Source: Spirogloea muscicola (Eukaryota; Streptophyta; Zygnematophyceae; Spirogloeales; Spirogloeaceae). Taken from it: a stretch of DNA of 36,169 bases. The position numbers and the translations under genes are program-made. Numbering within the stretch: position 1 is the stretch's first letter; every line of letters begins with the position of its first letter. Under the pieces are notes generated by a model that had not been told where the DNA came from, made no database searches, and saw only the letters and a program-made list of their open reading frames with translations. The stretch is taken from positions 1 through 36,169 of the forward strand of contig WELB01000295.1 of the NCBI GenBank assembly GCA_009602725.1. The letters are read 5' to 3'. Below, in pieces: positions 4,325 through 36,169 of the stretch.

Positions 4325-7300
4325 ATGGCCGGGCGAGCGGATAACGAGGCGGCGGCGGCGGCGGTGGCGCCGCCGCCGGAGGCGTGGGCCGGCTACGAGA
4401 CGGTTTTCACCAACGCCAAGGCCGGTGAGCTCGCGGCCGCAACGGCGCCCCCGCCGCGCGCCGCGCTTCGCGGTGGCGGCGGCGGCGCTGGAAGCCGGCC
4501 AGCGCCGCATTCAGTGCGCAGTCCCCATCGTGGTAGGCGTGCTTGCAGGAGCCGCATTCGGCCAAGCCATGGCCAAGTCGCTGCGATGGTCCCACGCGAG
4601 CTTGGCGCTGAGACGGCAAGCCCGCCGCCGCCGCCGCCGCCGCCGCGCGTCGCGGCGTCGCAGGCATGGACGGCGTGGACAAGGACCGCGTGCGGCAGGT
4701 GGTGTACGAGATGTCCAAGGGGTCGCGCTTCTTCGGCAACGAGCAGCGCAAGGACGGGGCCGTGCGCGAGCGCCTGGCGCGCATGCGCGCGCGTGCCGCC
4801 GCCGTCGGCGCCGACGAGCTGGCTGCGCGCCGGCGGGCCATGGAGCGCCGCGCGGCGGCGCTGGAGGCCGGCCGCGACCTCTCCCGCACCTGGCTCCACG
4901 TCGACATGGACGCCTTCTACGCCGCCGTCGAGGCGCTGGACGACCCGTCGCTGGCCGCCAAGCCCGTCGCCGTCGGCGGCCTCGGCATGATCTGCACCGC
5001 CAACTACGAGGCGCGCAAGTACGGCGTGCGCGCCGCCATGCCAGGCTTCATCGGCCGCCGCCTCTGCCCCGCCCTCGTCTTCGTCAAGCCCAACTTCGCC
5101 AAGTACACGCGAGCCGCCGAGGCTGTCCGCGCAGGTGCGACTTGAATAGGCGCCCTGTGGGAGTTAAGGCCTACTGCTTGTCACTAGCTAGCTGGTGCTG
5201 GTCTCGAGTCCTTGAACGGCAGCTTCTCAAAGTTACCGCCAAGTTACGGTATTTAAGTCAAGTGATGTCCAATTAAGTTACTGCCAACTTCTGGTTTTGG
5301 GATGGGACAAGGGGAACTTAACTGATGATTTAGCAGCCATATTCACGCTAACTTGCCCTGCTGCGTGGCAGTGCTTCGAGAGTACGACCCAAACTTCATC
5401 GCCCGCAGCCTGGACGAGGCCTACCTCGACCTTACCGAGTGCTGCCGGCGGCGGAACCTTAGTGGTCCTGAGGTGCAGGCCTCCACTCGCTGCATTTGCA
5501 TCCTGGCGCGTCATTCGGGCATTTCCCGTGCTCACAGGACAGACCTATGACTGTGCAGATTGCTGAGGAGATTCGGCGTCGTGTCAAGGAGGCGACCAAG
5601 CTGACGTGCAGCGCTGGCATTGGGCCCAATCGACTCATCGCCAAGGTCAATTGCAGCGCACCCTCTCCGCGCTCATCTCCTGCAGCTCTGTCTGTGCGTG
5701 CCGGCCTCTGCACCAGGGTGCTGCACCGTGCCGCGTGCTCAGCGAGCATGGCTGCTGCTGGCGCAGGTTTGCTCGGACATCAACAAGCCTGACGGGCAGT
5801 ACATAATGCCCAATGACCGGGCCGCCGTGATGCGCTTTGTCAGTACCCTCCCCATCCGCAAGGTGATGGCAAGCCCTGAATCCCACGTCCTTGGTGCCAG
5901 GACTACTGGTTATTAGCTGCAAATATACGACTTGTTGTAAGCAGTAAGTCTCTTTGAAGTCATTGTTTGGATGAAGCAGTCAGCTGACGCTGCAGACAAG
6001 GTGGTGCCAGGTGACGGGTATCGGCAAGGTAACAGAGAAACTCCTTAAGGAGGGTCTGGGCATCAGCACGTGTGGTGAGCTGCTCGACAAGAGTGCCTGG
6101 CTCTCTGCGCTCTTCTCCCAGATCTCCACAGGCACGCACTTGAAAAGACTTGAGTATGCCTGCTACAAGCAGCTGTTCTAGCTCCTAGTGTGCATGAAGT
6201 TTTCACGTGCCTGCATATGAGTATTCATATGAAGCTATACACCTAGCAGGTTCTGATCAGAAGGCCGTACTATAGGCAATGGAGTAGCCATTGTTACCTT
6301 CAGACCTGCATCCAGATGATTGTGCGATGATCCTATACTATTTTCTTATATCACAGTATTGATTTGTGATTTGTGATTTGTCATCAGCTGATTGTAATTA
6401 AGTCGTTTACTGCATACAAATTCTCATTTGCAGACTTCTTCCTGGCGGTGGGCCTTGGCATCGGTGGCAGTGAGCCTCCAGAGGACGAGCATCGCAAGAG
6501 CATTGGTTGCGAGCGTACATTCGCGTCCATCAGCAGTGAGGCCGACCTAGTCGCTAAGCTTGGTACATCATGAAGACCTTTCTGTTTCACATGTGCAGCA
6601 GATTGCACATTGTTCGTGTATGCTACACTCGCAGGCATTGGCTTGCTTGTGATACAGTGTTGTTCGATCTTGCAGATGAGCTTGTCGTGCACCTTGTTGA
6701 TGACATGGCTAAGGAAGGCCTGCATGGCCGGACGCTTACGCTGAAACTTAAGACTACGGGCTTTGAGGTACTTTGGACTATTAGGCCTATGCATCCAGTA
6801 TAAGGCTCTGGGCTTTACGATGAGAAGTTCGGAAATTCACCTAAGCTTAGCAGCGCCATCCTGCTACTCCTTTTGAGCCTCCCACTTGAAGGCTATATGC
6901 TGCAATTCTTGGAATGTAAAGTAATGATAGATATATTCGGGCCTTGGCTGAGAACAGGTCAGGACGCGTGCCGCATCCCTGAGCTCGTATGTCTCGACAC
7001 TGGAGGAGGTTCGGCCTGTTGCAGTGAAGTTACTCAAGGCTGAGTTGCCGATTGAAGTACGGCTGATGGGTATGCTTTTGTGGCAACTTGCAGTTAGACT
7101 TTGCATAAGAAGGTCGTGGTGTTTTGCCTCAGATAGTGATGTCAGGCTTGCAGTTGAGCTATAGACCTCCTTTAGTGGCTCAAATGCGAGCTTTGTGCCC
7201 AGGCATCAGGATGTCAAGCTTCAAGGAGGAGAAGGCGCACAATACCGATCCGCAGCAACCAACGCTTGCGGGCTTCCTGTCGGCTGATTCGCCAACAAAG

Positions 7301-9051: not shown

Positions 9052-11600
9052 TTAAGTATCAGCAAGAAGAAATTGGGCAATGTCTGAATAACCTCCCTCA
9101 ACATACAAAGAAGCGAGGCGCTCCCGAGAGGCATCCCAGCTTCCCTCAGCTGCAGCCAAGTCCAGTAAGAAGGCAGCCTGGTCGAGTGCTACCTGTCAGG
9201 ATGGCGGCAACGTCGTGATACTGATTACGAATGGAAGGGAAGGTCCAGGGTGGAGCGCCAATAAGCTGTGGAATGGGCCAGAGAAGCAGCGCCTCATCTA
9301 CAAATAAACTGTGATCCTGCTTCAGACCACCAAAGCTTACCTGTGCTAGAGCCTTGCCCTTGGTGAGGTCCTCCCGGCGGCCCTCCTCAGAGAGCTTCTC
9401 CCGCACGAACTCGAGCTGCGTGCTGCCATAGCCTGACAAGTCGGCCACTTCCTGCATTGCACGATGTGACAGCAGCATCACCAACTCATAAGCATCAGTA
9501 GTGTCCTCACTCCTGCTTTTCTGCATACACTCCAAGTAACGCACGCAACTGTGACCCAATTAGTAGTTACGCACAAGTCAATGCACCTGGAAAGGAGCAC
9601 CAAGAGTCCACCAAGGAGACTTTAGTGCAATGCGGGCTGCATCCCTTGCTTCAGCTTCCCGCCCTACTCTACATCATCAGGCACAGCCGTGTCAGTGAGC
9701 ACGTGCAATGCAAGGTCGACATTTCAGAAGTCAAGAGCTCAAGGAACAAGGGCAACATAGACAAGTAATGGATGCATGTAGTTGCAGCAACTATGTGCCT
9801 TGTAGAGCTACTCAATAAGACTCAGAAATGACTGAGAACCTTGTTAAGGTATAAATCTTGCAATCAGGGTTTAGACTGCCATACTTACCTCAGCATGAGC
9901 TGGGCGTTGAATGTGAATGGGCGGCCAAAACCTGGAAAGTGTTGTCTGCTGGCATAGTACTCGCCGGTGACAAGAGCAGATACCTGCCCCGCAGAAGTCA
10001 AATCGTCACACAAAGTAAATCAGCAGTTCTTCTGCAGTAGCAGCAGCAGCAGCAGCAGGGTTAGGCCTATATACTGATCAATAACTAGCACCAACTCCTA
10101 AGGTTTTCTGATTGCAGATTTGAGTTGAGATAGGCTCTACCTCATCTCCACGTTCCAGATGTCCGAGCGCAAGAGCCTCCAGCACGTCAGGGAACATACC
10201 CACCTGCACTAAGGCACTCTCGCATCAACCATCTATTGTCAAAATACATACAATCTGTCAATTTGAGACTTCTGTCCTGGCCTGCAAGGATCTCACCTTC
10301 TTCATCAGGAAAACCTCCAACTTGCCGATGCCAGACGCTGCAAAGCTGCCGCTATTGTAGAGGTTGGTGCCGTCATCCCCAGCAGCCGCCGCAACCGTGG
10401 ACCTGCTGCCCTCAGCATCCTCCTCTGCCAGCAGCCTGCGAATATACTCTTCCACCTGCACGCAAGCACAAAAGGCTGCATACGTATCACCCTGGTGCAG
10501 TACCTGACATGACAAGAGCCTTTCCTACAAATAGCTAGCTGCAGAGCAATTTGCCTCTGAGCAAAAAGCACAGCTGAGCAGTCGAGGAGCTCCAAACTGC
10601 AGCTCCTGGTAAAGCCTATACCGTCTTGGCCATGAGCAGGACGCCAGTGTCATTGACAACAACGATTGGCAGCTCCATGCTGTGGGAAGCACAACAAAAT
10701 AGAGATGTCTGGATAAGGAATACATTTAGCAATGGTTGTTGATGCGATGCCATTCTGTATGCACGCGTGGAATGAGCAGCTGGGAGAGTGGCCAACTGAC
10801 CTTGTTGGAGCAGTCGGCCATCTCAGGAGTGCTTTAGTGCTGCCTGCGCTTCAGGAAAAGCAGAACAGCAATCGGCCGTTACCATTGGACAGGTCGATGA
10901 CATCTGCATCAAGCTGTAGGGAGCAAGTTACAATGCCGTAGTATCTCTTGATAAAGTAAAAGTGGCAGTCCAATCTGGGGTTTAACCAACCAAGAGCCCG
11001 ATTAATTGCAAGGTGTCCTTGACAACCAACAACCACGAGTCGGCTACCAATCCATGATCCCAGGAATCCAATTCGGGCTTTGACATAGTCAGTACGAGTC
11101 AGCAGCGCCACGACCTCCGATACTTATCATATGGGGTTGAAGTTTTAGGATTTGGGCTTCAGGGTTTATGGTTCAGATGTCTTCTGCAGCAGTTAAGAGC
11201 AGCGCATGGGGGCGTACCTGTGGCAGGGTCCCTAGACAGCGGCACGACGAGCGGGAGGATGCCGCGGCGGTCTCCGGGCGGCACGAGCTCCTCCCCTGTC
11301 GCCGTCAGCGCCACCCGCCCCCGTCTGTCAGCTGTGACGGCTCAGCCGAACGACCAGTTGCAGGCAGAGCCACAGCCGCCGCGTCCGCCGGGCCTGCCTT
11401 GACCACTGCCGGCGAAGACCCAAGTGGCCATGACGCGGCGACAGGCCGCCATCACCAACGCCGCCTTGGCTGCGCAGGCGGAATGGCCGGCGCCCACCTC
11501 GGGCCTCGAGGACTCGGAGGAGAGCAGGGAGCAGGGCCGGCGGCGGCACCTTCGCCACGCCCTCCAGGAACGCCGCGTGCTCTGCGCCGCGGCGGCCATG
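9052..11600 (-). CDS. Conserved plant-type protein of unknown function (possibly plastid), 5' partial
   Basis: Exons on the minus strand: about 11600-11498, 11331-11218, 10903-10882, 10679-10622, 10455-10297, 10203-10141, 9983-9889, 9668-9587, 9451-9341, 9192-9052. They join in phase into one continuous protein of more than 280 residues. Conserved-looking blocks include LVPPGDRRGILPLVVPLSRD, VEEYIRRLLAEEDAEG, MFPDVLEALALGHLERGDE, HFPGFGRPFTFNAQ, ARIALKSPWWTLGAPF, DLSGYGSTQLEFVREKLSEE and a C-terminal VALDQAAFLLDLAA. I recognise this block order from a land-plant protein but cannot name it; no catalytic motif is evident. Plastid targeting is inferred only from the Ala-rich GC block at 11750-11955, which could be the first exon (ATG 11955). 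One intron (10881-10680) has boundaries that are not GT-AG in the only in-frame solution. Confidence 0.8.
11120..11165 (-). repeat. Degenerate telomere-like tract in an intron
   Basis: The plus strand shows GGGGTTGAAGTTTTAGG, then GGGTTTATGG, diverged TTTAGGG-type units. It lies in the intron between exons ending 11218 and starting 10903 of the minus-strand gene, so the gene's sense strand carries the C-rich version. Confidence 0.5.
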
Positions 11601-23761: not shown

Positions 23762-24554
23762 NNNNNNNNNNNNNNNNNNNNNNNNNNNNNNNNNNNNNNN
23801 NNNNNNNNNNNNNNNNNNNNNNNNNNNNNNNNNNNNNNNNNNNNNNNNNNNNNNNNNNNNNNNNNNNNNNNNNNNNNNNNNNNNNNNNNNNNNNNNNNNN
23901 NNNNNNNNNNNNNNNNNNNNNNNNNNNNNNNNNNNNNNNNNNNNNNNNNNNNNNNNNNNNNNNNNNNNNNNNNNNNNNNNNNNNNNNNNNNNNNNNNNNN
24001 NNNNNNNNNNNNNNNNNNNNNNNNNNNNNNNNNNNNNNNNNNNNNNNNNNNNNNNNNNNNNNNNNNNNNNNNNNNNNNNNNNNNNNNNNNNNNNNNNNNN
24101 NNNNNNNNNNNNNNNNNNNNNNNNNNNNNNNNNNNNNNNNNNNNNNNNNNNNNNNNNNNNNNNNNNNNNNNNNNNNNNNNNNNNNNNNNNNNNNNNNNNN
24201 NNNNNNNNNNNNNNNNNNNNNNNNNNNNNNNNNNNNNNNNNNNNNNNNNNNNNNNNNNNNNNNNNNNNNNNNNNNNNNNNNNNNNNNNNNNNNNNNNNNN
24301 NNNNNNNNNNNNNNNNNNNNNNNNNNNNNNNNNNNNNNNNNNNNNNNNNNNNNNNNNNNNNNNNNNNNNNNNNNNNNNNNNNNNNNNNNNNNNNNNNNNN
24401 NNNNNNNNNNNNNNNNNNNNNNNNNNNNNNNNNNNNNNNNNNNNNNNNNNNNNNNNNNNNNNNNNNNNNNNNNNNNNNNNNNNNNNNNNNNNNNNNNNNN
24501 NNNNNNNNNNNNNNNNNNNNNNNNNNNNNNNNNNNNNNNNNNNNNNNNNNNNNN
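23762..24554. other. 793-base assembly gap
   Basis: A run of N flanked by very GC-rich sequence on both sides. It separates the 5' ends of the minus-strand receptor gene and the plus-strand aladin gene, so it hides both start codons and the shared upstream region. Confidence 0.99.
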
Positions 24555-24564
24555 CGCGGGGGCT

Positions 24565-27500
24565 GCGCTCGACGGCGCAGCAGCTGCTCGGGTGGCTGCG
24601 GGCCGCCGCCTCTCGAGTCGCGCCGGCGGCGTCGCTCGGCGGCCAGGTCGGTGGCCCTCCCAGCTGTGCGCCGGCTGCCGGCTCGTCATCTGCGCTGACG
24701 GCCAGCCTCCACTTAAACCCAAACCCTTAACCCTCAAACTTAAATCCCTAAACCCTGACCACTAACCCCAAATTCCACACCCTCAAACCAGAACGCACCT
24801 CCAGAGTGGACGTGGTGGCTGGCTGAGCTGCCGCTTGCAATCGCATAGCTACCCTTGCACGACCTCCTACACTGCGACAGCTCACATGTGATTGATTGTC
24901 GTTCTTGTGTTGATTGCATGTCAGGATCATCCCTTTCTTCACTTGAACTGGTGAAGGCTCGTCTGGCACGTCCTTCTCACAACTCGTATCCTGGTTCATC
25001 TGTTGAGCAGGACAGCTTCCGGAGGCAGACGGTCAGCTGCCACTGGAGACGGCAGAGGCTTGCTGTTGTTGACGCCCGTGACCGCGTGCTCCTGTACGAT
25101 CTTGATGACCAAGGTACCGCTCCACATAATGCATTGCATTACCATTACCATCTCCGTAAAGCTCGGAGGCTTAGGAGCTTGCATGGAGATTGACATGATA
25201 TCATGGGCTTTCTGCCTAAGTTTCTATCTTGGCCAATTTATTTTATCCAGACAAGGCTGCGCAGCCATCTGTGCTGGGTCATGAGTTCCAGCGCCAAGTG
25301 GCTGCAGTTGCTTGGAGGCCTCGTGCTGGTCAATCTTTAGCAGCAGCCTGCCGGTATGTTGGTGAGCTTGCTAGGCACCTCAAGTGGCCGGTTATGAAGA
25401 ATAGTGGAGTTGCACTGCATCAGTAATCGCTTGTGCTATCCAATTCATTGCATCTGGAGGTCTTTGGGCGTCAAGATGCGACACTTATGCTGGCTCTCTC
25501 AGATGCCCTCCAATGACTGTAATCGAAGTCATTGCCCGGTAAGTCATAATGACATTATGGTAAGTACATTGATGTGCAGGTCAGGGATATGCCTGTGGGT
25601 GGTCTCTGGAAGAGGGCAGGTGACCGCCGGGCACTGGGGCAGGGCCAAACATGGCACTGGCCTGCTCGCAGACGCAAAGATGACCTTTCTGAAGTCAGAG
25701 AGCGCCACGCCTGTCACGTCACTGACCTGGAGCCCTTGCGGACAATATCCAAAGCCCCAATACTGACCTTGCATCTCAATCGCTTGGTAGCTACGACTTT
25801 GCCAGCATCGTGATCGGGACATGTGGAAATTACACGTAATAACGTCATATACTTAACAGCTGTGTACAGTACTACTTTGTGTAAGAAGTGAGGTTACTAG
25901 AGCAGGTGTGATGCTGCATGATGGCGAAATCAATTTTGTATAGAGCTTCCTCTGATATCAGGGCTTGTCACAAGCCACTGAGGAAGGACCTACTGGCAGC
26001 TTGTCCTTAACGAATCTCCACTTACCTTGCTTCAGCTTCAACAAGCAGTCCCACATTTATCGTGTGGGACGTAGCTACTGGTGAGCAGTTGGCTTTCTCT
26101 GAGCTCTGCTCAGTGGTCTCGCAATAACTGCACTGGCTGCAAGATGCTTGGACTGCAAACGTTAAGACACATAGACTGCAATTTGTTGAGCTAGGTTGAT
26201 GGCACCAGAGTGCACCCAAGCTTACATAGCACTAACAGCACTTTGAGTTCCTTCATATTTGTAGCTAGTGATCCTGTAGACAGTCTTACGCCCATATTGT
26301 TGTTGTGAAGGTTCTGGGGAGCCCTTGCGGAGAGGGTTTGCTGGTGTTTCGCTGGTGGAGTGGTCTCCCTCAGGAAACTACTTGTTCTCAGCTCATACGT
26401 AAGCATCATAGTCATACGAACAGATGTGACTCCGCCTAGTCAACTTCAGATTTCTTGCGTGCAACGCACTTGTTGTTCCCTGCTCAGACCACACTAGTTT
26501 TGCTATTCCTGGTTGCGTAAGAGCACTGTAATGGGTTGGTTGTATCCAGGGATGCTACTTTCCACATATGGGAGACCACAACGTGGACGTCAGAGCTGTG
26601 GTCTTCCGTCCACGGCAATGTTGTTGTGAGAGAGCTTCTCTACAAGCTTCGTCTATCCACAGGAGCTGCACATTGGTCATAGACTATCTGTATTTTGATG
26701 CATACTGATGTGCTTGTTGTTGCACTGAGAAGACCTTGCCTTTGCAATCTCGTATTGGGCAGAGTGCAAGGTGGAGCTCCAGTGGCAAAGTGATCTTGGT
26801 TGCATTTGAAAGTGCAACAACGCTGGCTGCTATCCATCTGGCAGGACAGCCACCCTCCTTAGGTGACAGATGCAGATGCTCATCTGTGAAATGTCAAGAT
26901 TTTTGCAATGGCAGTGGCTCCCCAAGAAGCAATAATCCAATGAAGCCTCCGGAGTGCATATCGAGGAGATCGCGATCGTGGTTAATTTGACCTGTGTTTC
27001 TTTCTTAGTCTGTGAAAATGTCATATAGTATGAAGCCATCCTTTCAGCTTATGACTAAGATGGTGTTTTGCTTCATACGTCATTTGCTAGATGCAACCCT
27101 CATCCCTGTTGACCTACCGGAGCTTGACGCCGTGGCGGGACCTGCTGCCTCTGCTCATCAGTATGTACATCACCTGTCTCATGCATATACATAGCAACAT
27201 AGCACAAACATGCAGTCTTGATCGAGTTGGTTGTGTTGAACTGCAGAATTATACTAAGTCTCCGGTGCTGTCTGCAGGGTCGGCATTGAACGCATGGTCT
27301 GGGACTCGACAGGGCAGCGGCTGGCCGTAAATGCAAGGACTGGTGATGCCTCCACTGACGGCCTGATTGCCATCTACGACACGCGTACTGCTCCTATTGT
27401 ATCAGTGTCCTTCATGTAAGGACTTGGACTCATTACGTCACTTGGATCAGTAACCTCGATTCTGCCTTCTAGAATGCATCCACCTATAAGGACAGCGTCA

Positions 27501-27836
27501 TAGAGTATATACTTCTGTCCATCACAACTTGTTGCTTTGTTGCAGAGGCTTTTTGAGAGGACATGATCCTAATGCAAAGCCCATCTCCTTTGCCTTCTTC
27601 GAGAAGATACGTTGGGGAGCTTTACTGGCAGTGGTAAGCTGCAGAAATTGCTAAGTCTGTGGTGTTTCTGCCATATACTTGATCTACCCTTCCCATTAAT
27701 GCAGCAATGCATAAATTGTACCAAGCAAATCGTGCGTGCTGCCAATCTCTGTCCAATTTGATGCTCTCCTCCTTTACTGCAGCATTGGAGCACTGGCCGT
27801 TGTTGCTTCTATCCGCTCCTTTTTGGAACTTCTTGA
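24565..27836 (+). CDS. AAAS: Aladin, WD-repeat nucleoporin (AAAS/ALADIN), 5' partial
   Basis: Solid exons: 25011-25113, 25251-25353, 25580-25744, 26022-26080, 26311-26398, 26550-26622, 26763-26862, 27091-27160, 27278-27415, 27546-27633, 27783-27836; all in phase, 346 residues to the TGA. Aladin is a scaffold nucleoporin that folds as a WD40 beta-propeller. Blade signatures: VAAVAWRPRAGQSLAAACRS, GICLW, VTSLTWSPCGHYLASAS, FIVWDVATG, LVEWSPSGNYLFSA, TFHIWETTTWTSELWSS and, after a linker, MVWDSTGQRLAV. The C-terminus HWSTGRCCFYPLLFGTS resembles plant aladin ends. An upstream GC-rich exon (24565 to about 24645, reading LRSTAQQLLGWLRAAASR before GTCGGT) and a small exon near 24925-24950 are probable; the start is in the gap. 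The intron after 25744 has AT-AC ends; the others are GT-AG. Confidence 0.93.
24712..24790 (+). repeat. Degenerate telomere-like tract (CCCTAAA sense) in aladin 5' intron
   Basis: Imperfect units AAACCC, AACCCTTAACCCTCAAA and CCCTAAACCCTGACC run over about 80 bases, just after the putative GC-rich first exon of aladin. The orientation relative to transcription is the same as in the 11686-11745 tract. Confidence 0.75.
25745..26021 (+). other. U12-type AT-AC intron of aladin
   Basis: The intron starts ATATCC at 25745 and ends CTCCAC at 26021. TCCTTAAC at 26004-26011 matches the U12 branch-site consensus, its second A being 11 bases from the 3' end. Removing exactly this segment joins CA|T and gives SPCGHYLASAS, continuing the WD repeat in frame. 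No GT donor lies nearby. Confidence 0.85.
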
Positions 27837-28439
27837 CTCCATACGATAGTTGACAGTCTACGTACAGATCCTGCTGGAAGTTGCTTCGCCTGTCTTCCGA
27901 GCTCTGACACATCAAATTAGAGACATCTGCTGAAGTATCCTTCCATGCATAGACTTTTGTCTATTCTGTCGCAAGACCTTGGTTCACTGAGGATGCTTTG
28001 CACAGACAGCTTGCGTGAGGCATCTAGGACAGAGAAGCAGATTTGCCTTGCAGGGAGAGAGGCCGCTACGACCTAAGAGTCTCGATCTGTCATCAACGTG
28101 AGCAAATCTTTGTGCAAGCTCTGTGTCAAAAAGGGCAGCCAGCGGAAGCTTGGGTGACTAAGTACCTGCAAGGAAGACTTGTGCAGTCACTACCAACACT
28201 GGAACCCCACAGACGTGGTTCCTCTTTCTGGCCCCTTGAATTGCCGATCATTCTTTGTCTGAGTGGCCAATCACAGCCATCGCCTATCATTGGAAGAGTC
28301 TATTTTCTTTTGGAGGGGACCGTGGTTGCGGATGGCCAGCTCAAGTTGGTAGCAAGACAAGGGGGAGTCTATAAGACAGTCACGGAAGGCCAGATGGCAT
28401 GCCTCTGTCGTGCTGGGTTGTCGTCAGAACAGGCGGGCT
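27837..28439. other. Intergenic; 3' flank of aladin
   Basis: No gene is recognised. A diverged tail-hairpin unit (GTGGCCAATCACAGCCATCG) near 28262 announces the repeat block that follows. Confidence 0.5.
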
Positions 28440-28532
28440 CAATGCCTAGTGTCCCTCTGCTCCTTGTACGGTCCTTTGGGCTGGCCTCTCACAGCCATTG
28501 CCTTCCATTGGAAGAGCTGTTTCTCTCTGTAC
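28440..28532 (+). repeat. Tail-hairpin repeat upstream of a retroelement copy
   Basis: TTTGGGCTGGCCTCTCACA then GCCATTGCC near 28468 matches the units near 20890 and 29236. It directly precedes the retroelement coding sequence, suggesting head-to-tail arrangement of two copies. Confidence 0.6.
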
Positions 28533-29240
28533 ATTCCTTTTCTCAAAGACGCAATGTATGGCTTGGTGCGCGAGGCAGGTTATCATGCGGCCATGGAGGT
28601 GCCGGGCATCATGCCGGTACTCCAGAAGCGTGGCAGGCCTTACGTCAGGCGTCTGGATGTGGTGGCCACCCCCCGGAGTGGTGGGCCTCGTCTTCTCCTC
28701 GACGTCGTCCTCATCGACGCCTTCCAACCAGGGGCACCCACACCGACTGTGCCAGGTTGGGCGACACATCATGCGGAGAGGAAGAAGGAGAGACACTATA
28801 ACGACCACCCCCGGGGCGACCACTTCTTCCCATGCGCCATGGACATCTACGGCGGCTATGGAACGAAGTGGTCTGCCCTCCTCCATCGCCTGGCACTGCA
28901 TGTTGATGCCCGCCGACGTAGTCGGGCGGGTAGCTTAGGCCATTCTAGCGTCCTGCAAGCCATCGTTGCATGTTATAGGATGAGGCTATCATTGAGTCTG
29001 CAGCGCTCCCAAGCACTCGCGATTCACCAGCGTGCTGGTCGTGCATTAACCCAGGCTAATGGCTTCCGTGGAGGTGGTTCGGCTCCTCAGTATAGCTTGT
29101 CAGATATGCATGTGCTTACTCGGGGATATTAGCGTCCCCCTTAGCCAGCTCAATACCCAGTTTACAAGACATTTGTTAAGGCTAGTATTGGCCTCCCTTT
29201 CAATTTCATGCGCATCGTGCGCCTTCTCTCTTTCTAAGCT
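28533..29240 (+). mobile_element. Retroelement C-terminus with restriction-like endonuclease domain, plus 3' tail
   Basis: The frame ending with TAG at 29130-29132 gives about 200 residues, the longest copy here. It reads KRGRPYVRRLDVVATPRSGG, then PRLLLDVVLIDAFQPGAP, HHAERKKERHYND, FFPCAMDIYGGYGTKWSALL, YRMRLSLSLQRSQALAIHQR and ends SDMHVLTRGY. The D...DV...AE-x2-K-x3-Y layout followed by a F-P-A-E/D-x-x-G block resembles the C-terminal PD-(D/E)XK restriction-like endonuclease of some non-LTR retroelements. No reverse transcriptase is present, so it is 5'-truncated. 29133-29240 is the 3' tail, ending in CTCTCACAGCC. Confidence 0.75.
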
Positions 29241-32094: not shown

Positions 32095-32459
32095 ATACTC
32101 ATGCATGGAGCAACTTTGCTGCTCTAAGTTGCAAGGTTGTCCACATTGTGGGCATGATTTCCATATCTGCAGCATAGGAGGTAAAGCTCCACCATACTGG
32201 AGCCTTGCCGCACATTTTTTTGCCCGTCTTATCAAGGAGGCGCAATGACGAATTATGGCGTCCAGCAAGTCTGCATGAGCAGCAGTTGTTCCCCCAGCAG
32301 ACCTTCCAAGCTAATGTCTCTATTACTTGGCGTGGTGGTCGTCTTAAAATGAGGCGCTCTCAAAGTTGTGGCAAGACCAGATAGCAAGAACTGCAGGCAA
32401 GGCGTGTGCACTTTGTCTGGAAGATACATTGCATGTCTCAGAATGCAGATTTTGATAGC
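32095..32459. other. Intergenic; nothing recognised
   Basis: Minus-strand frames contain a CPQCGQPC pattern near 32150, but no continuing domain is visible. Confidence 0.4.
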
Positions 32460-32640
32460 TTGGCAGCGCTCAAGCTTTGAGTATGCATCAGCGTGCTGGG
32501 CGCGTGCTTTAAGCCAGGGCACTGGCTTCTGTGGCGGAGTTTCCGGCAGAGCTCCGGCTCTCCAACTTAGCTTGTCAAATTGGGATGTACTCACTCGTGG
32601 GTACTGAAATCTCTGTTGTGCAATATCCCGTCGGTGCTTA
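32460..32640 (+). mobile_element. Diverged retroelement C-terminal fragment
   Basis: CAGCGCTCAAGCTTTGAGTA and following bases align with the LQRSQALAIHQRAGRAL region of the 29132 copy. A frame shift separates it from the final frame, which ends LSLSNWDVLTRGY with TGA at 32605-32607. It is an old, broken copy of about 50 codons. Confidence 0.7.
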
Positions 32641-34149: not shown

Positions 34150-34584
34150 AGATTAGGTCTCCGTATTATGTAGCATTGTTTAGTCTGCACTCGACTCTGC
34201 CTGAACAATGTATTGGCTTGAATTGGCCTCCCTTTCAATTCATGCGCCCCGCGCGCCTTCTCTCTTTTGGGCGACGAATTTGTTCCCCTTGCAGTCGACG
34301 TACACGGGGCCTTCGGCGCAAAGTGGCTCGACTTGCTTCACCGCCTGGCGCAGCAGGCCGCGGCCCGCCGCCACGGGCAGCACGGCGAGCAGCCCGGCTT
34401 CAATGTCGCCGGGTCCCTCGCGCAGGTCTACCGCATGCGGTTGGCCGTCTCGCTTCAGCGGTCACTCGCGTTCGCGGTCCACTTGCGCGCAGGAGCTTTG
34501 GCGGCGGCCTCCGGCTTCCGTCAGGGCGACGTCTTTCCCCCGGCTAGCTACTCCGACTTGCATCTCCTGACTAGAGGTTACTGA
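34150..34584 (+). mobile_element. Retroelement C-terminal fragment, about 105 codons open
   Basis: The frame ending with TGA at 34582-34584 reads GDEFVPLAVDVHGAFGAKWL, then DLLHRLAQQAAARRHG, VYRMRLAVSLQRSLAFAVHL and SDLHLLTRGY. It aligns along its length with the 29132 copy, starting in the F-P-A-D/E-x-x-G block of the endonuclease domain. 34150-34260 is the distal tail of the preceding copy. Confidence 0.75.
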
Positions 34585-35829: not shown

Positions 35830-36169
35830 CTAAATATGTGAATCAGCCAGACCTAGCAAACTTCTACATCTATCATACTCGGGCTTAAACAAGCCCTTGG
35901 TCAGAATATCTGCAGTCATATCTGCTGAACTACAGTGCTGCATCTTGATGACTCCTTCGTCTACCTTCTCTCGGATGAAATGATGTTGTATCTCAATATG
36001 CTTAGTACGAGCATGATAGACTGGATTCTTAATCAAAGCAATGCTACCTTGACTGTCGCTGAACAAAGTGGTTGCGCTCGATGAAGAGAGGAATCCACAT
36101 TCTTGTAGTAGTCTCCTCAGCCAGATTGCTTCTTTTGCTGCTGCAGTCGTTGCCATGTACTCCGCTTCA
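35830..36169 (-). mobile_element. C-terminal RNase H of a Ty1/copia polyprotein, runs off the window
   Basis: The frame is open from the window end to the stop at 35830. It carries EAEYMATTAAAKEAIWLRRL, then LFSDSQGSIALIKNP, HARTKHIEIQHHFIREKV and SADMTADILTKGL. These are the conserved RNase H blocks of plant copia elements (catalytic D in SDSQ). The frame is intact here, so the copy may be fairly young. Confidence 0.93.

Follow-up and report, generated by a model that had tools for sequence, protein, structure and literature searches.

The window, by which we mean the whole 36,169-nucleotide stretch of DNA analysed, carries on its plus strand an aladin gene whose eleven modelled exons join in frame to give a 376-residue protein (Table 1). 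The ATG at 24918 is a possible start of this model and the TGA at 27834-27836 is its stop; if the ATG is not the start, exons would lie further upstream. About 33 modelled residues precede the position matched to residue 102 of the structure 9sob, an assembly gap (793 N at 23762-24554) lies just upstream of the model, and two single N are also present in the contig. The name aladin, proposed in an initial annotation made from the sequence, is borne out by a match to the Pfam family PF25460 (Beta-prop_Aladin, a seven-bladed propeller) that scores 214.9 bits (cut-off 171.1), and by the best match among solved structures, 9sob ‘Aladin’ (E 7.3e-98), to which 156 of the 333 residues aligned over the propeller are identical. 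The next structures are 7wkk ‘Aaas-prov protein’ (2.4e-37) and 7r5j ‘Aladin’ (1.1e-35), which we take to be the Xenopus and human aladins, and 9hcj ‘WD40 repeat-containing protein’ (1e-26). The entry 9sob appears in a paper on the Arabidopsis nuclear pore. Judged by these alignments, the predicted gene is plant-like and, among solved structures, closest to Arabidopsis. The modelled frame is open across ten introns and its stop lies past the last conserved residues; the gene is apparently intact. Searches with a single protein as query, which reach close relatives only, returned 4 stretches that fit the aladin pattern in viral_contigs and 30 in genome_contigs, with none confirmed in either set.

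Other genes and repeats are present in the window. On the minus strand, a ClpS adaptor gene (2654-2998; Pfam PF02617, 63.1 bits) would fit a plastid-bearing host, and a multi-exon gene at about 9190-10680 yields a partial product, modelled to 216 residues, that matched no Pfam family at E 1e-5. A search with the SPFH protein gave two candidate loci, at 46 and 44 % identity. Three open reading frames (28353-29132, 32353-32607 and 34222-34584) have similar terminal residues (LTRGY), GGGCTGGC-type repeats recur near them by eye, and all three appear to be fragments of a single dispersed element. Neither 28353-29132 nor 34222-34584 matched a Pfam family, a single-protein query, reaching close relatives only, found no relative of the retroelement-like frame 28353-29129, and two dispersed repeat patterns had no exact match in viral_contigs. 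By eye, the minus strand of 35830-36169 resembles the terminal part of a copia-type retroelement. No Rfam family was found within the window at gathering score.

Table 1. Coordinates of the aladin gene model and of the parts of its AT-AC intron.
Feature	Position	Strand	Basis or remark
Aladin gene model, 11 exons, 10 introns (9 GT-AG, 1 AT-AC)	24918..27836	+	Exon joining, Pfam, structure-sequence match
Upstream exon, first part of WD repeat	25580..25744	+	Exon joining and alignment
Putative AT-AC intron, 277 nt, phase 2	25745..26021	+	Sequence, frame, homology
5′ splice site ATATCCAAA	25745..25753	+	6/9 match to RTATCCTTT; mismatches at +7 to +9
Branch site GTCCTTAAC	26003..26011	+	Branch A26010 (or A26009), 11 (or 12) nt from last intron base
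3′ terminal AC	26020..26021	+	Sequence
Downstream exon, remainder of WD repeat	26022..26080	+	Exon joining and alignment

The letters and coordinates reported for this intron in the initial annotation are correct: it starts with ATATCC at 25745 and ends with CTCCAC at 26021, and TCCTTAAC, matched at all eight positions, occupies 26004-26011 with 11 intron bases after A26010. For U12-type introns, the excerpted text of PMC2846911 gives the consensus RTATCCTTT for the donor and UCCUUAACU for the branch site, and that of PMC2831892 gives ATATCCTT and TCCTTAAC. The distance from the branch adenosine to the intron end, 11 or 12 nt depending on which of the two adenosines is used, lies inside the optimum of 11-13 nt from the 3′ splice site stated in the excerpt of PMC3584512. 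The same excerpt states that the first three intron bases are not paired by U11 and that U12 introns are without a pyrimidine tract; here, 11 of the 16 bases ahead of the terminal dinucleotide are pyrimidines, against a range of 6-14 in the 31 introns that we modelled. A possible hairpin close to the branch site was discarded, its z being -1.27 over 76 nt and +1.13 over 336 nt.

The donor is the weaker signal. Positions +7 to +9 are AAA, whereas the class has TTT, so that the donor (in its longer form ATATCCAAAG) contains RTATCC but not the RTATCCTT required by a strict rule that PMC2846911, as excerpted, cites with T allowed for one C. The initial annotation had given six donor bases only, and these are right; the full donor is ATATCCAAA, not ATATCCTTT. 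Its claim of a match to the U12 AT-AC class consequently holds for the branch site, the distance, the termini and the frame, and needs qualification for the donor.

The reading frame constrains where any intron can lie. Read through, the sequence reaches a TGA at 25764, the eighth codon past GGA (25740-25742), which is the final whole codon of the exon, and extending the following exon backwards in its own frame meets a TAA at 26008-26010; a donor must therefore precede that TGA and an acceptor must follow that TAA. Excision of 25745-26021 gives VTSLTWSPCG-H-YLASASTSSPTFIVWDVATG, which aligns to Arabidopsis aladin with no gap at the join, in agreement with the earlier proposal that excision restores a WD repeat. 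We enumerated splice pairs with donors at 25640-25859 and acceptors up to 26080 and scored the 3035 open combinations against the corresponding stretch of 9sob. The pair 25745-26021 scored 297; none of the other combinations in the top 25 has GT-AG, GC-AG or AT-AC ends. A second AT-AC pair, 25760-26021, scored 283, adding five residues and lacking an RTATCC donor; the highest-scoring GC-AG pair, 25754-26045, is in frame and reached 263, and the best GT-AG pair, 25694-26045, reached 216, which upholds the assertion that no GT-AG choice restores the repeat. Five registers of the same length scored 298, so the exact base is not fixed by homology alone; their ends are TA-CT, AT-TT, TC-TA, CC-AC and CA-CC, and AT and AC termini are present in the register that preserves the aladin protein. 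Pfam, applied to the 25745-26021 version and to the best GC-AG and GT-AG versions, gave 214.9, 196.5 and 178.9 bits, the same order as the enumeration.

How readily might such signals arise by chance? In a motif-only scan of the window, with weight matrices that (as for the branch-site scores below) are approximations of our own to the consensus strengths rather than published ones, the pair 25745-26021 ranked 15th (13.6; top 17.9). Counting its own sites, the window holds 56 donors on the plus strand and 48 on the minus strand that score at least as well, and 2 and 4 such branch sites. Motifs alone do not single out this intron; the reading frame makes the case. The region was also dinucleotide-shuffled 100,000 times, allowing 15 registers of length 277. 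The shuffled sequences had AT-AC termini in 7.2 % of cases and GT-AG or GC-AG termini in 10.9 %; 0.46 % carried RTATCC and 0.36 % carried CCTTRAC 9-16 nt ahead of the end, and not one had the donor and the branch site along with a terminal AC or AG. What carries weight is thus the joint occurrence of donor, branch site and ends at the very positions that the reading frame dictates. The octamer RTATCCTT occurs in the window only at 27935 (plus strand) and 1656 (minus strand), about the chance expectation: GTATCCTT at 27935 lies roughly 100 bases past the aladin stop codon, and ATATCCTT lies near 1656. On the minus strand near 9849, ACCTTAAC was considered as a further branch site and rejected, the frame-keeping acceptor of that gene being at 9669.

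Comparison with other introns of the window sets this one apart. We modelled 31 by eye (10 in the DNA polymerase kappa gene POLK, 5 in an SPFH-domain protein, 6 in an unnamed protein and 10 in aladin), leaving aside a TPR protein, ClpS and the HSP20-like, membrane and LRR-like proteins recognised by eye; with the 30 comparison introns placed on frame-keeping GT-AG or GC-AG sites, the set comprises 29 GT-AG, one GC-AG and one AT-AC intron. The AT-AC intron has a branch-site score of 11.5 (runner-up 4.3) and the lowest match to the U2 donor, 2 of 6 positions, where the remaining 30 introns match at 3 to 6. The GC-AG intron is in POLK (6132-6433), with the donor CAG/GCACGC; the end of the POLK model is shifted by two bases from the reading frame, with no bearing on its introns. 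Another POLK intron, GT-AG at 7070-7202, has a U12-like donor, GTATGCTTT (9.6), without a U12-type branch site (best -3.7).

From its sequence, frame and homology and its uniqueness among the modelled introns, we infer that 25745-26021 is very probably a U12-type intron of the rare AT-AC kind, lying in a plant-like aladin gene that is apparently intact, and that it would be spliced, by the minor spliceosome. In the mechanism that we propose, ATATCC and TCCTTAAC would be recognised jointly by the U11/U12 di-snRNP, the branch site would pair with U12, A26010 (or A26009) would attack position 25745, and 25744 and 26022 would be joined. Because TTT is missing at +7 to +9, weak pairing with U11 and U6atac is predicted; splicing may thus be slow, or the U11 and U6atac of the host may be tolerant.

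A few AT-AC introns are removed by the major (U2) spliceosome; we think it very unlikely that this one is, in a host perhaps having lost minor splicing. Such a reading would accommodate the incomplete U12 donor and the pyrimidine content near the 3′ end, which is unexceptional among the modelled introns; it fits poorly with the low agreement with the U2 donor, and no other modelled intron resembles this one in having a complete TCCTTAAC 11 nt from its end. It is still harder to believe that the real intron is GC-AG or GT-AG and that the protein lacks part of a WD repeat. The POLK intron shows that one GC-AG intron can be modelled in this window, and a frame-preserving GC-AG pair is available, but its use would remove the conserved LASAS residues and lower the score by 34; the best GT-AG pair is 81 lower, and the two versions lose 18 and 36 Pfam bits, respectively. 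A third reading is that the gene copy has decayed, or that an assembly error mimics an intron. The gaps in the contig and the short modelled segment ahead of the 9sob alignment point would be compatible with it, yet the frame stays open over ten introns to a stop past the conserved residues, and an error is unlikely to create TCCTTAAC at the right distance; we give this reading almost no weight.

A U12-type intron bears on the nature of the host. A green-lineage host is likely, since the predicted aladin is closest to that of Arabidopsis among solved structures. Excerpts of PMC2846911 report 0 U12 introns in Chlamydomonas reinhardtii, and excerpts of PMC10639083 report 166 minor introns in Chara braunii, 110 in Klebsormidium nitens and 77 in Cyanophora paradoxa; the main text of the latter makes no mention of Chlorella, Chlamydomonas, Volvox, Coccomyxa or Ostreococcus. 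Our literature search found no report of the minor spliceosome or U12 in chlorophytes, the sole chlorophyte match concerning sodium channels; for a minor intron in Klebsormidium it matched PMC10639083 only, and for a minor intron in aladin it found no report. At3g56900 is not named among the matches listed for the gene or U12 in literature to 2004, and two papers on plant aladin, as excerpted, do not give the intron position in land-plant AAAS genes. Given the intron, a streptophyte is more likely than a chlorophyte as host, and would cause no surprise, minor introns being known already from Chara and Klebsormidium. The support for a streptophyte suggested in the initial annotation therefore stands as a matter of likelihood only, drawing on the plant-like gene, on the reported absence of U12 introns from C. 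reinhardtii and on their presence in two streptophyte algae. It is unlikely, though worth stating, that the host is a non-streptophyte green alga or belongs to some other lineage for which minor splicing has not been claimed, with drifted U11 and U6atac and donors that need only RTATCC without TTT; the aladin gene would then be a first sign there of a kept, altered minor splicing.

These results have practical and evolutionary implications. A gene finder restricted to GT-AG would mis-model this intron, and the intron would imply a minor spliceosome in the host; were the host a chlorophyte, this would contradict the loss of minor splicing reported, in the excerpt of PMC2846911, for green algae such as Chlamydomonas. 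Among known systems, the protein resembles Arabidopsis aladin (9sob) over the propeller, at the identity given above, and the intron would join the minor introns of green-lineage algae represented by those of Chara braunii and Klebsormidium nitens in the excerpt of PMC10639083. With the U12-type AT-AC class, whose description the excerpt of PMC2831892 credits to Hall and Padgett, it shares the AT-AC ends, ATATCC at +1 to +6, TCCTTAAC and a branch adenosine 11 nt from the end, and it differs in having AAA, where the class has TTT, at +7 to +9. The aladin intron adds one more example to a known class and is unusual in one respect, the AAA after ATATCC, which would make donor tolerance testable.
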